Assembly: GCA_016800925.1 (NCBI GenBank)
Contig: JABCPU010000032.1
Coordinates: 244,668-308,667, forward strand
Origin: Suillus spraguei
Taxonomy: Eukaryota > Basidiomycota > Agaricomycetes > Boletales > Suillaceae
Length of the DNA stretch: 64,000 nt
Direction of reading: 5' to 3'
Position numbers and translations under genes: made by a program. Positions 51,996 to 64,000 of the stretch are shown here, one piece after another. Every line of letters begins with the position of its first letter. The first letter of the stretch is position 1. The notes under the pieces were generated by a model. It made no database searches and was not told the origin of the DNA. It saw nothing but the letters and a program-made list of their open reading frames with translations.

Positions 51996-53558
51996 AAACC
52001 TTTATTTGGAAATGTACCCACAAAGGGAATCCAGCGAGAGCTTTTGCACCGAGGCATACACCTTCGCATAGTCCAGGGACGAGATGGAGTCCATCAAGAG
52101 TTGGAAGGTCGAAGGATTCCATCTTACATGTGCAACGATATATAGGAGGGAAGAAATCCGGTAACGATGAAGGATAGACTGTGGACTCTCCAGGACTGAA
52201 GATAAATTTGGTACTGGTTCCAAACACATTGCGGCGGCGTTCCTCTGGGGTCAACCTATGTTCTCGAGCTGCACAAATGGGACGATGACGAACTACAACC
52301 AAAAAGCGGAATTTGCTTCTCACATTTCATTGCTCGTAACAGCCGCTGCTCATCAATAAAGGGAATCTTAACGATTGCTTCCCATTCTTGCTTCTTTCCA
52401 TTTAAGTCTTGCTCAAATTCAAGAGGGTAAAAGTCCAATATCGGTGGATTTGGATCGTGCATTAGGTCCTATGGTTGATTAGTCTAATGCATGACACAGG
52501 CCACTGAACATACTTGATATGCTATCGGAATATGTTCCATGCTTGCAGACGGGAGGACGCCCATCAGTTGTTCGAAAGGACGGAAAGGTTTACAAAGCTC
52601 GAACATGAACGACTTGTCACCAAGGTCGCGTAAATCTTGAAGAAAATGTGAACATAGCACAATGAGGACAGGGAATGTAAAAAGTACCAGATATCCGCGG
52701 GGCGTGATGGTAATTGTAAAACCAGCCCCAGGAGGCGATCCCACTGTAATAGTGATGCATACCCCATTGTAGACCCTCTGCGTAGCGGTATATCAAGTCG
52801 TCCATCTCTTTAGGGTCATCATAGGAGATTCCAAGTTTCTCCTGTCGTGCAACCGGTTGGTCTGACGAACGGTATACAAGGCGGGGACGCACCTTGTAAT
52901 ATCCTCTCTTCCATTCGGACATTTTGTCGTTGATGGATTGTTCATGTCGTGCGTCAAAAACCCCCACCTTCATCATCATCATCATCATCATCCACCACAG
53001 GGGCCTTGTCGAATTTCTTTGACACTCGATCTACTGCAGCCCTACCTTCATCATCATCTTCCTCCACATCTTCCTACTCGCTCTCACTATTACTGTCTCC
53101 GTTAGCCTGCTCTGGATCAGTTTCTGCCAAAGGTTCGTCCAAAAATCCTGGGAGCCGCCATGTGACAAGATTTTGATCCTCTTCATCGCACTCATCCCAT
53201 GTAACCGACAGATGCAACTCCTCCGCCAGGGTGCTGATGAACTTCCGTTCCCGAGCGGGAAACGTATTAGGCATTGTCAGGGCCGCAGTACGGTGCTGTG
53301 AGGGTTTCCTGGGGTTTTGCAATACAAACTGCTGTACTTGATCAAAAATGTCTCGTTGAGGGCGCGTAAGAACTAACATGGACTAATTGTTAGTTGTCGA
53401 CAGGAAGAATGGAAAACTGTACCAAGCTTAGCACGCATGCGCGCAAGTTCCATTTCTTCTACGTGTTTGCTCCGCTTTCCTTTGAACCAATTCGAGTCCA
53501 CATATTCTATGGTGTACGGTCTTTCGTCCGCGCCCCTGTAGTCGTCCTAGTATGACAT
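51996..53558 (-). pseudogene. XRN1: XRN1 fragment (5'-3' exoribonuclease)
   Basis: Middle part of the cytoplasmic mRNA-decay nuclease, with its introns. In minus-strand order: WFKGKRSKHVEEMELARMRA, RPQRDIFDQVQQFVLQN, SVTWDECDEEDQNLVTWRLP, an acidic stretch, FDARHEQS, WKRGYYK, EKLGISYDDPKEMDDLIYRY, GLQWGMHHYYSGIASWGWFY, KPFRPFEQLMGVLPSASMEH, ILDFYPLEFEQDLNGKKQEW, KIPFIDEQRLL and TPEERRRNVFGTSTKF. A TAG interrupts it after DSNSESE (about 53,075) and one extra T shifts the frame in GGGF/DARH (about 52,961-52,965). The catalytic N-terminal domain is missing, and the piece ends abruptly at ALAGFPL, near 52,020. Confidence 0.9.
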
Positions 53559-53892
53559 GTATGATGCTGTCATCGAACGCCTACAACGATGGACGGTTCA
53601 CGAAAGGGACTTGTATACTTAGCAAGCCGTGTGTCTGCTTCGCCTGTACCTCCACTCCTTTCCGCTCACTCTGGCGCCTTCAGGTGTCGTTCGCATATGT
53701 TCGAGCCACGTCAGCATTTGCTGACGTGCGCTGGGCAGATGCGTTAAGCACTGGAAAAGGGCTTGTACCTTAAGGGAGAAGAGGCTAATATCGAGGATGG
53801 TGGAGATGATATTATATTTTATTAACTTGACCTATGTATTCTATGGTGTACGGTCTTTCGTCCGCGCCCCTGTAGTCGTCCTTGTATGACAT
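53503..53892. repeat. 56-bp direct repeat at the XRN1 fragment edge
   Basis: A 56-nt stretch starting TATTCTATGGTGTACGG occurs at 53,503-53,558 and again at 53,837-53,892, 334 bp apart, with one or two differences. The first copy is the 5'-most recognisable XRN1 codon stretch. The DNA between (53,559-53,836) is unrelated. Confidence 0.92.
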
Positions 53893-53904
53893 AGGCAATT
53901 GCGT

Positions 53905-61735: not shown

Positions 61736-62821
61736 AGTGAAATTGTGCAAAGGATAGCTAAAGGAGAATGGACGTCTTCCGAAGTCCTTGAGGCATACAT
61801 TGCGCGTTCTGCTATAGCTCAGGCCAAGGTAAACTGTCTTACAGAAGGGGAGTAGATTCGCCAATTCTCTTCTGGTATTTCCATCCTAACACCTTTCACA
61901 GTCCTATATGAGGACGCCCGAAAGCAAGCAAAGGAGCTTGATGCAGAGTTTGCGAGCACAAAGACACTGCGGGGACCTTTTCATGGTGTTCCAGTCAGCG
62001 TCAAAGATAATTGTACATCGCTCCATGTGCGACCGATACGTTTTTGAACTTTGTTGTAGACCAGATCGAGGGATACGACGCGACCATTGGGTTCACAGCA
62101 TGGGCCAACAACCCAGGCAAAAAAGACGCTTGCGCATGTCCTTATTATCACATTCACCCATTCTCTCTATCATTACTTGTAGGTCGTTGCTCAACTCAGA
62201 GCTGCTGGTGCCATCATCTTCGTGAAGACCAATGTACCGCAGACAATGCTCGCGTTCGAATGCTCTAATCCTCTCTGGGGTCGCACGACAAACCCATGGA
62301 ACAACAAGTATACATGCGGAGGCAGCTCTGGTGGAGGTTCGTTATATGCTTGTGAATATCTTAGTAAATAACAACGTCTGGCACTAGAGGAGCTTTGCTT
62401 GCCATGGACGGATCCGCCTCGGGCATCGGTTCTGATATCGGAGGAAGCTTGCGCATCCCAGCATCGTATTGCGGTGTGTACTCTTTGAAGCCAACGGCTG
62501 AACGTGTTAGTTTATTGGTACACAAGGAAGGTGATGTTCTCGATTCTTCCAACTAAGACGATAACTGGCTTTGTCTTACAGCCGTCCGGCCTGGATTCGA
62601 AGTAATTCGATCTTCTCATGGGTCATTAGCGCGGTTAGTCGCTACCTGCATCACTTGGCTCATTCTTGACTATTTTCTAGGTCTGTTCAGGACTGTGAAT
62701 TGTTCTGCAAAACTATCTTTGGCCAAAAAGGACTCGTCTCACCAGAATGTTCCCATGCCGTACCACGCTGTCGAGCTCCCTTCCAAGCTTCGCTTTGGCT
62801 ATTACCTGTCAGGAACAGGCG
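61736..62821 (+). pseudogene. Amidase, 5' two thirds
   Basis: Amidase-signature hydrolase, acetamidase type. Exons read EIVQRIAKGEWTSSEVLEAY, VLYEDARKQAKELDAEFAST, RGPFHGVPVSVKDN (catalytic Lys), YQIEGYDATIGFTAWANNPG, AQLRAAGAIIFVKTNVPQTM, FECSNPLWGRTTNPWNNKYT, CGGSSGG (cis-Ser), GSDIGGSLRIPASYCG (nucleophile Ser), YSLKPTAER, AVRPGFEVIRSSHG and SVQDCELFCKTIFG. The Ser-Ser-Lys triad is intact. A one-base frameshift precedes KKDSSHQNVPMPYHAVELPS, and the protein is cut off after FGYYLSGT at the junction with the Cys-rich gene. It also lacks its own start: it is fused directly behind the SEC23 fragment. Confidence 0.85.
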
Positions 62822-64000
62822 TGTCATTTTGTGGAACTCTATTCCTGATGTCAGCCAGCTCCCTGCGAGCGCCTCAGGGTCCCTGTCGTTGCTCAACCTG
62901 CAATCGTCATCCTGTTCGCCGGTTTGTTCCGGAGATGGCATTTGCTCCTCTTCTGGGACGTGTCAATGTCCAAGCGGATTCACCGGTTCATCTTGCGAGG
63001 CGTGCTCGTCTGGTTTCTTCGGACCGGAGTGTCAGGCCTGTCCGTCAGGGTGTACTTCATGCGATGATGGAATCTCGGGCACGGGACGTTGCTTGGTGCC
63101 AGTAGTGTCAAACCTGCCATCGAGTTGCAATTGTATCAATGGCGAATGTGGCGCTAACGGACAGTGTACCTGTCTTAGTGGTTGGACCTCGGCGTCAAAC
63201 GGAACTCAATGTGCTGCATGTGCGGCCGGTTTCTTTTTAGCTACAAACGGGAACTGCGAAAGTCAGTTACGATACATTCTTTTTCTGTCTCACCAATCTC
63301 ATCTTTGATTTCAGTTTGTCAGTTGGGTTGTCAACAGTGTGCTGATGGCACCGGGGACTGCATTACTTGCGCGTCCGGCTTTACTCAGGACGGGAACGAC
63401 CGCACAATGTGCGATGCCATTCCGCAAACTACGTCAAATCGCACGACTTGTCCTACCGGAAGTTACGGTGCTGGGTCTAGTTGCGCGATTTGTTCGCCGC
63501 TTTGCACGACTTGTACCGGGCCAAATTCGAACGATTGTGTCATTTGCGGATCCGGCACGTACAAGTTTAATGGGTCATGCGTGACGACCAGTTCTGGAGG
63601 TGTTTGCTCAGGCTCCAATATGATTTCCAACAATGACAAGCATGAGTGCGACAGTAAGTGTATCCCACTGTGCATTGACGTGTACTCAATATGTAATTCT
63701 CAGCTTGTGGACCGAAGTGCACGACCTGCCAGATATCCAATTTTAATGTGGCATCTACCGTCAATCAAGCTCAGTGTACCGGCTGTCTTCCTGGTTTTGT
63801 CTTGTCACAAGGGCAGTGTGTGACAAGTTGTCCATCTGGTACTTTCCTATCTCCTCAAGATAATTTGACGTGTCCAGGTACGGACTGTCTCAATTCGATT
63901 GATTACTAAATTAGACTGATGTCGTCATGTATTCAGCTTGTTCTTCATCCTGTAGTAGCTGTGCGGAAAGCGCTACCACCTGCTTGACATGCGCGAACAA
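62822..64000 (+). pseudogene. Cysteine-rich membrane protein, copy 2, partial
   Basis: Same CxxC-rich exons as copy 1, starting VILWNSIPDVSQLP at the amidase junction and cut by the window end within the exon that starts ACSSSCSSCAES. The transmembrane part lies beyond 64,000. Confidence 0.75.

Follow-up and report, generated by a model that had tools for sequence, protein, structure and literature searches.

What process brings truncated, intron-bearing pieces of host genes together at the end of a fungal contig? The window, the whole 64,000-nucleotide stretch of Suillus spraguei DNA that was analysed, closes contig C503: it covers the final 64 kb, and at its base 64000 the contig stops (position 308667). 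A sequence-only reading of its right-hand part had seen pieces of at least nine unrelated host genes and a copy of local intergenic DNA, and had proposed Helitron capture, with microhomology-mediated joining as the alternative. The patchwork is real yet multicopy, present at dozens of places and not a one-off, and at least seven ordinary host genes are represented in it, introns included. Its features, in window coordinates, are as follows.

52008..64000, plus strand: patchwork block, the interior of a multicopy mosaic repeat; left edge truncated in this contig, right side cut by the contig end
52256..53030, minus strand: piece of XRN1 with matches to the Xrn1 helical domain; its two open stretches, 52256-52468 and 52617-53030, differ in frame
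53503..53892, plus strand: 56-bp direct repeat (53503-53558 / 53837-53892); one unit and the intervening stretch are missing in the C773 and C322 copies
55811..56001, minus strand: copy, in inverted orientation, of window 31114-31304 (94%), which lies at a distance of 24.5 kb on this contig
31114..31304, plus strand: probable donor stretch for the 55811-56001 piece
56648..56959, minus strand: Tao3 / MOR2-PAG1 fragment (PF14222, E 1e-12)
58248..58980, plus strand: cholinephosphotransferase (CPT) fragment (E 1.8e-5; donor on C691)
58981..58982, plus strand: two extra bases at the CPT/HisRS join
58983..60205, plus strand: HisRS C-terminal fragment with introns, ending at the stop codon (donor on C691)
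60779..61276, plus strand: SEC23 fragment, beta-sandwich and helical domains (domain match)
62368..62556, plus strand: amidase fragment (PF01425, E 1.4e-15)
62549..62570, plus strand: breakpoint cluster, three variants with different left partners at 62549, 62561 and 62570
62570..64000, plus strand: Cys-rich protein fragment; other copies extend beyond the contig end

The XRN1, Tao3, CPT, HisRS, SEC23 and amidase pieces were confirmed by Pfam or PDB matches, XRN1 by two matches to PF17846 in Pfam (E 2.7e-17 and 7.7e-11), the identity of HisRS being shown via its translated genomic parent. The Cys-rich gene is supported by a protein search that found relatives in many mushrooms. The two other proposed genes were not confirmed: the candidate NACHT NLR piece (54374-54694) had no match in Pfam, PDB or NCBIfam, and the candidate nuclease-like piece (55165-55545) none in Pfam or NCBIfam. 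The copy of intergenic DNA was recovered, and the five named pieces from 58,254 on do share one orientation, all lying on the plus strand. Three HisRS introns are common to copy and parent, in agreement with the proposal that the pieces were copied as DNA; the HisRS copy in the window carries a stop of its own, together with a deletion of 1 bp and an insertion of 4 bp.

The CPT-HisRS block (58254-60300) was found full length at at least 29 places including the window, among 40 matches that were the best 40 of 64 candidates. Twenty fetched copies of it, window included, diverge by at most 1.03% (median 0.59%), and their consensus lies 3.3% away from the parent. Since the join is carried by 20/20 fetched copies no more than 1.03% apart, it is not a misassembly; a unique or misassembled patchwork was ruled out for this join and for the block as a whole, which recurs in many copies. 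The left edge is another matter: the repeated block starts at about 52008, not at 51996 as had been read, and this edge looks private to C503, as 11 of 12 other fetched copies have one common different left flank and the twelfth starts further inward. To the right, the block runs on past base 64000, the contig end. The family is larger than the block: its composite exceeds 30 kb, and both deletion variants and inverted pairs occur in it.

The search for an intact parent led to contig C691, which carries the donors of CPT (L043 8048-7315, 96.3% identity) and HisRS (L043 2251-1035, 95.5% identity). The two are neighbours there, 5 kb apart and in the same order, and the DNA between them has been removed in the mosaic, so that the idea of pieces from unrelated places fails for this pair. 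The deletion variants keep a single order, and several deletions are common to several contigs. Deletion joins have 0-12 bp in common; 7/20 of them share at least 3 bp, vs 1.0 expected, among the matches listed, with overlaps read by hand from BLAST, which may overstate microhomology. One additional join, with a 56-bp repeat, was kept out of the 20-join count. Of four joins checked base by base, three could be read, with 1, 1 and 3 bp shared. Given these 0-12 shared bases, end joining or template switching, sealing deletions inside a mobile family, is part of the story.

The precise end of the family, (A)TCTATCTGTTTCTCCGGCTGCAGGGG followed by a minisatellite, lies in the window itself, on a second copy.

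39311..43526, plus strand: second, shorter family copy that has the fixed left end of the family (holds the counterparts of 60556-61880 and 62570-64000, which overlap by 3 bp at their join)
39311..39338, plus strand: fixed terminus TCTATCTGTTTCTC[C/T]GGCTGCAGGGGTC
39449..39652, plus strand: subterminal minisatellite, differing among copies

This copy reaches 1.1 kb beyond the point where the first copy meets the contig end. Allowing up to 3 mismatches, the genome has the terminus at 24 places (reversed-pattern control, 0). Of 27 ends read, 22 have distinct flanks and the remaining 5 repeat the flank of another end. Moving outward from TC at the 22 distinct ends, there is A in 21, then T in all 22, then C in 19; the fixed end (A)TCTATCTG... 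thus abuts many unrelated host sequences, mostly after CT (19/22 distinct sites). A TC start, TCTATCTG or TCTATATG, was seen at 27/30 ends read, the ends being partly picked by pattern and their orientation assumed. Three more starts (L078, L079, L081) are without the normal end and have another flank in common. About 12 kb inward from the fixed end is common to two copies with unrelated left flanks (C301 and C477), which share C301 42625-47607 at 98.3% and 48155-54963 at 95.0%, where the fetched C477 sequence ends; three further ends with different flanks, two of them arms of one palindrome on C313, share 2.4 kb. Some of these shared structures may be segmental or haplotype duplications.

The boundary of the fixed end is set by related empty sites, available for 11/22 distinct ends, with CT at the junction in 11/11. 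These sites are paralogous, not allelic, and they vary: the L089 site reads CT in satellite copy L067 and CC in L070. The host base at the position of the A is A in 3, T in 6, C in 1 and G in 1, so that insertion between host A and T is contradicted by 8/11 sites; there the A before TC is not host sequence, and the element sits after CT. A TA target duplication, which we had considered from flank bases alone, was weakened by the same sites. Members also start inside other members, at the equivalents of window 43526, 53374, 55155 and 56773 and at one place inside another member. Three such points have related empty sites in the window:

53374..53375, plus strand: related empty site; the C729 (L100) member starts at its equivalent
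55155..55156, plus strand: related empty site; the C1024 (L077) member starts at its equivalent
56773..56774, plus strand: related empty site; the C1101 (L098) member starts at its equivalent

Window 43526, where two places stop, had been a candidate for a true far end and was dropped, because it is a normal point of insertion (CT^T) within the mosaic.

The reading that we prefer, with a probability of roughly 37%, is that the patchwork belongs to a family of large, multicopy DNA repeats which have a single fixed end, carry host gene pieces with introns and probably spread by one-ended, rolling-circle-like copying from that end. A putative nicking enzyme would cut after CT and attach the fixed end, and copying would proceed for a variable distance, carrying neighbouring DNA along. 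The mosaic would then arise by self-insertion, by fold-back and by deletions whose joins share few or no bases. Donor pieces would enter as DNA and could be long, CPT and HisRS coming from one locus with the 5 kb between them lost. We infer a variable far end, no far end having been pinned down. The rolling-circle origin rests on the one-sided end and DNA-level capture; target-primed reverse transcription, too, would produce a one-sided pattern of this kind.

It seems unlikely to us that the mosaic is a gene-capturing family of canonical Helitrons or Helentrons, mobilised by the abundant Helitrons of this genome and with a 3' end beyond the fetched sequence. The genome has at least 154 Helitron_like_N matches among the best 150 of 196 candidates, and because many have equal scores its Helitrons were probably recently active; the fixed end does begin with TC after an A in 21/22 sites, and Helentron-type elements also carry microsatellites or tandem repeats (PMC4067079). 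Against this stand the A that is not host-derived in 8/11 related empty sites, the absence of a PF14214 Rep match within 30 kb of any of the 24 termini among the matches listed (best 150 of 196 candidates), and the intact Pleurotus helitrons, reported to be without host gene fragments (PMC4289320). Two Helitron loci of one family (L071/L072) share no match of at least 25 bp with the mosaic, which removed them as its kin; their one 36-bp match falls outside it, at window 44086-44121, and their apparent end was read as a palindrome followed by CTGG. The supposed Helitron-type helicase remnant at 50.4 kb found no support either, having no Pfam match and no similarity to the ORFs of two Helitron loci, which represent one Helitron family. 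A CTRR end was not noticed in the sequence fetched, which stops short of the far ends, and no Rep or transposase appeared among the scanned ORFs of a sample of fetched copies; L041 gave an RNase H match below threshold and C301 a fragment of Ty3/gypsy, neither tied to the fixed end. Helitron membership is therefore unproven, with no second end, Rep gene or target duplication shown. Target-primed reverse transcription, in which the fixed end would be the 3' end of a right-to-left RNA primed at the nick after CT and the far ends 5' truncations, is quite unlikely in our judgement. One precise end, a short target preference and no second end shown are its expected pattern, and the five plus-strand pieces are antisense to such an RNA, so that their introns would survive; XRN1 and Tao3, however, would be sense, and the two XRN1 matches, which differ in frame and whose open stretches are 148 bases apart, look like unspliced DNA. 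No poly-A tail or flanking duplication was noticed, and for this process a unit length of about 12 kb and a palindrome of 17 kb would be unusual.

The inverted pairs bring in another explanation, a fold-back DNA transposon with terminal inverted repeats that gathered pieces of host genes in its arms, copies with one arm being broken remnants. Four of the 24 termini form two facing pairs within 25 kb (C313 and C385), with the same end on both sides facing inward. The C313 pair (4806-22201) is a 17.4-kb palindrome with arms 98.8% identical, differing outer flanks and TA at both junctions, this TA being all that is common next to its two ends in the one pair examined. Such pairs are what an inverted-repeat element would give and speak against one-ended copying, as do long window-type copies without a traced fixed end. 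We nevertheless regard the fold-back transposon as very unlikely: C385 lacks the TA on one side, no place spanning the joined C313 flanks was found among the best 40 of 94 candidates, and for 20/24 ends no partner facing them lies within 25 kb when up to 3 mismatches are allowed, a count limited by contig ends and diverged ends. Growth without transposition, by template switching and unequal exchange in repeat-rich, possibly subtelomeric or heterochromatic DNA, appears least probable of all. Some mosaic copies do share a contig with 2.0-2.24-kb tandem repeat arrays, and a helicase with DEAD and Helicase_C matches, read as RecQ-like, lies in one palindrome; RecQ helicase genes are placed near chromosome ends in Agaricus bisporus var. 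burnettii (PMC7473861). Searching the whole assembly for the telomere repeat gave 0 matches and so was uninformative on position, and the precise end, seen at 22 distinct flanks and backed by 11 related empty sites, means insertion, not random exchange.

Several known systems come close to this family. Bacterial IS91/ISCR elements move by one-ended transposition, with one fixed end beside a short target motif and a variable far end, co-mobilising neighbouring DNA and building mosaics. The present family is like them in its one fixed end near a short target motif, in its built-up mosaics and, on the preferred reading, in a variable far end and the co-mobilisation of adjoining DNA, and differs in that IS91/ISCR elements are bacterial and that no Rep-type enzyme was identified here. 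Pack-MULEs and fold-back elements carry gene fragments with introns in or between inverted repeats, and Pack-MULEs leave 9-11-bp duplications; the family resembles both in its intron-bearing gene fragments, whereas no 9-11-bp target-site duplication is present at C313, the one pair examined. Plant and animal Helitrons share with it the DNA-level capture of intron-bearing pieces of several genes, the many copies and the TC end (background in PMC4289320), but the family inserts after CT and not between A and T, has palindromic members, and yielded no CTRR end or linked Rep. Helentrons and DINE-1 elements are alike in having no recognised coding gene of their own, tandem repeats inside and a T next to the insertion point; they prefer TT and have 12-15 bp subterminal inverted repeats, whereas the family has CT, one known end, and T as the next host base in 6/11 empty sites (PMC4067079). 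HELPO1 and HELPO2 of Pleurotus are likewise rolling-circle elements of mushrooms, if the family is one; their intact elements are reported to be free of host gene fragments and to insert at AT (PMC4289320), unlike the family, in which at least seven genes are represented. No published account of the family was found in literature judged by titles and abstract starts, which held nothing on transposable elements of Suillus spraguei.

Two deposited predicted proteins of Suillus spraguei look like mosaic products: P0023 fuses an amidase domain with the Cys-rich protein, and P0002 begins with a stretch that matches an ORF adjoining the fixed end on C313. The family therefore also creates chimeric gene models, perhaps genes. 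It may represent, though we think this rather unlikely, a new class of mushroom mobile DNA, in which one-ended elements would insert after CT, copy themselves and the DNA beyond, and insert into each other. By forming giant palindromes as well, they would bring unlinked segments of host genes together in growing, amplified mosaics that feed chimeric gene models. With a recent burst, one known donor locus, a deletion series and 20 near-identical copies in one genome, it allows a stepwise reconstruction of gene capture.

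The patchwork of host-gene pieces at 52008-64000 of the window is a member of a multicopy DNA family, of which a shorter second copy lies at 39311-43526. The genome assembly comprises 86.2 Mb in 1256 contigs; the window is C503:244668-308667, and its 3' limit coincides with the end of that contig. In other copies the family extends to the left of 52008 (stretch L041) and, past 64000, as far as position 43526 in the second copy, from where it goes on into stretch L042. The resulting composite exceeds 30 kb and is itself repeated; C525:248028-279799 tracks it nearly throughout, the exception being about 2 kb near 256.4-258.4 kb. 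The family has one main order, though not always a single one: in some copies L042 is joined to 60346 or 60833, which produces arrangements with repeats. Among the matches listed, variants differ chiefly by deletions, certain of which recur: 53693/56572 (at least 5 contigs), 57180/57679 (at least 4) and 61880/62570 (at least 6, including the second copy of the window). The same downstream sequence is entered from two different breakpoints, 62816 in 13 of the 14 copies examined there and 63514 in 4 of 4.

Pieces of at least nine unrelated host genes had been read in the block from sequence alone. The XRN1, Tao3, SEC23 and amidase pieces were borne out by Pfam matches, the cholinephosphotransferase (CPT) piece by a PDB match and the histidyl-tRNA synthetase (HisRS) piece, via its genomic parent, by PDB and NCBIfam sequences; relatives of the Cys-rich protein occur in many mushrooms. 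No match was obtained for the NLR and nuclease-like pieces in Pfam or NCBIfam, nor for the NLR piece in PDB. Family parts beyond the window carry REV1, a sub-threshold PP2C match, Ty3/gypsy fragments and a DEAD/Helicase_C helicase with an OrsD domain, which in our reading would be RecQ-like. Two predicted proteins of Suillus spraguei at NCBI, P0002 and P0023, are apparently encoded by mosaic copies, and in P0023 an amidase domain is fused with the mosaic's Cys-rich protein.

The family has a fixed left end, borne by the second copy:

39311 (start), fixed end of the second copy, TCTATCTGTTTCTC

The 28-base end was found at 24 places in the genome with up to 3 mismatches (reversed control, 0). 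Thirty starts were read; in 27 the end is the fixed one or closely resembles it, and 22 of the 27 have distinct flanks; L078, L079 and L081, which all share another flank, were excluded from the end count. In 19 of the 22 the A follows CT. Related empty sites were present within the fetched sequence for 11 of the 22, several of them inside family members, at positions equivalent to 43526, 53374, 55155 and 56773 of the window. Because the junction reads CT in the matching empty copy at all 11 sites and the next host base varies (T 6, A 3, C 1, G 1), the element most likely starts with A, seated behind CT. At one of these sites (L089) the repeat has a further copy that reads CC, not CT. A different repeat (43527-44600) begins at the second copy's CT^T site, and its boundary is nearly the same on C1190 and C1213. 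On its other side the second copy adjoins a retroelement fragment with GAG-pre-integrase and integrase domains (36670-38073), copia-like in our reading. The window also holds a 39-bp tandem array with several reading frames open (48489-49719).

The members on C301 and C477 have unrelated left flanks and about 12 kb in common; 2.4 kb are common to three other ends, of which two are the arms of C313. C775 bears three successive ends in one direction, at least one being a nested insertion. C313 contains a near-perfect palindrome of 17,396 bp, with 53 substitutions and 76 gap columns along the length of an arm; the fixed end stands at either side of it, and the sequences beyond the two ends differ. 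The left flank of the palindrome belongs to a roughly 2-kb tandem repeat, and no empty site was found with the joined flanks as query (best 40 of 94 candidates scored). Related repeats at 2.0-2.24 kb spacing also form series on C623, C998, C517 and C883, some of which carry mosaic copies. Two further inverted structures were seen: a 3,021-bp pair of 100% identity in L044 (C489:43000-52500), either very recent or an assembly effect, and a small palindrome at 45003-45766 of the window (364-bp arms, 98% complementary, 36 bp between).

The block joining the CPT and HisRS pieces (58254-60300) is present in full length at no fewer than 29 places on 28 contigs, window included (40 matches; best 40 of 64 candidates scored), 2 of the 29 lacking the last two bases. 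Twenty fetched copies, the window copy among them, differ pairwise by 0 to 1.03% (median 0.59%), and the C691 parent differs from their consensus by 3.3%. The HisRS piece of the window carries a stop, a deletion of 1 bp and an insertion of 4 bp; both indels are absent from all 19 other copies and the stop from 18, one further copy being unreadable there.

Parents in the same genome were located for part of the mosaic. About 5 kb separates the CPT stretch from the HisRS stretch on C691, and their order and orientation are those of the block, in which the two join at 58980/58983 with two additional bases in between. The HisRS piece runs as far as the stop codon and keeps three introns, in agreement with the proposed retention of introns. 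The copy of local DNA in the block was likewise recovered as 55811-56001, its probable donor being 31114-31304 of the window. The HisRS parent and the founder consensus are set apart by 20 synonymous changes and 9 non-synonymous ones (one a stop) across 289 codons, and by 8 changes across 155 intron bases. As the coding changes are mostly synonymous, much of this divergence seems to have arisen while the protein was still under constraint, which suggests as donor an allele that had already diverged, or else a related lineage.

Helitron Rep domains are plentiful (at least 154 genome matches, many of equal score), and two Rep loci about 7.07 kb apart on C392 are 99% alike where compared; together these suggest a recent Helitron burst. 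None of these matches was linked to the fixed end of the family, and a scan of the ORFs of a sample of fetched copies found no enzyme for its movement. In its manner the family resembles the Helitron-type capture proposed in the sequence-only reading; because the A-T insertion rule of Helitrons is not followed at the sites tested, we do not claim the family as a member.

From the single precise end, the short target motif and the fact that no second end was seen, we propose that the family is copied one-endedly from its fixed end. Retained introns, large size and nesting favour a route via DNA, and hence a rolling-circle type process, over target-primed reverse transcription, which we consider unlikely; a fold-back transposon seems slightly less probable still. 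Copying from the fixed end would resemble the transposition of IS91-type elements, which is one-ended, and the mosaic family would work in the manner of gene-capturing Helitrons.
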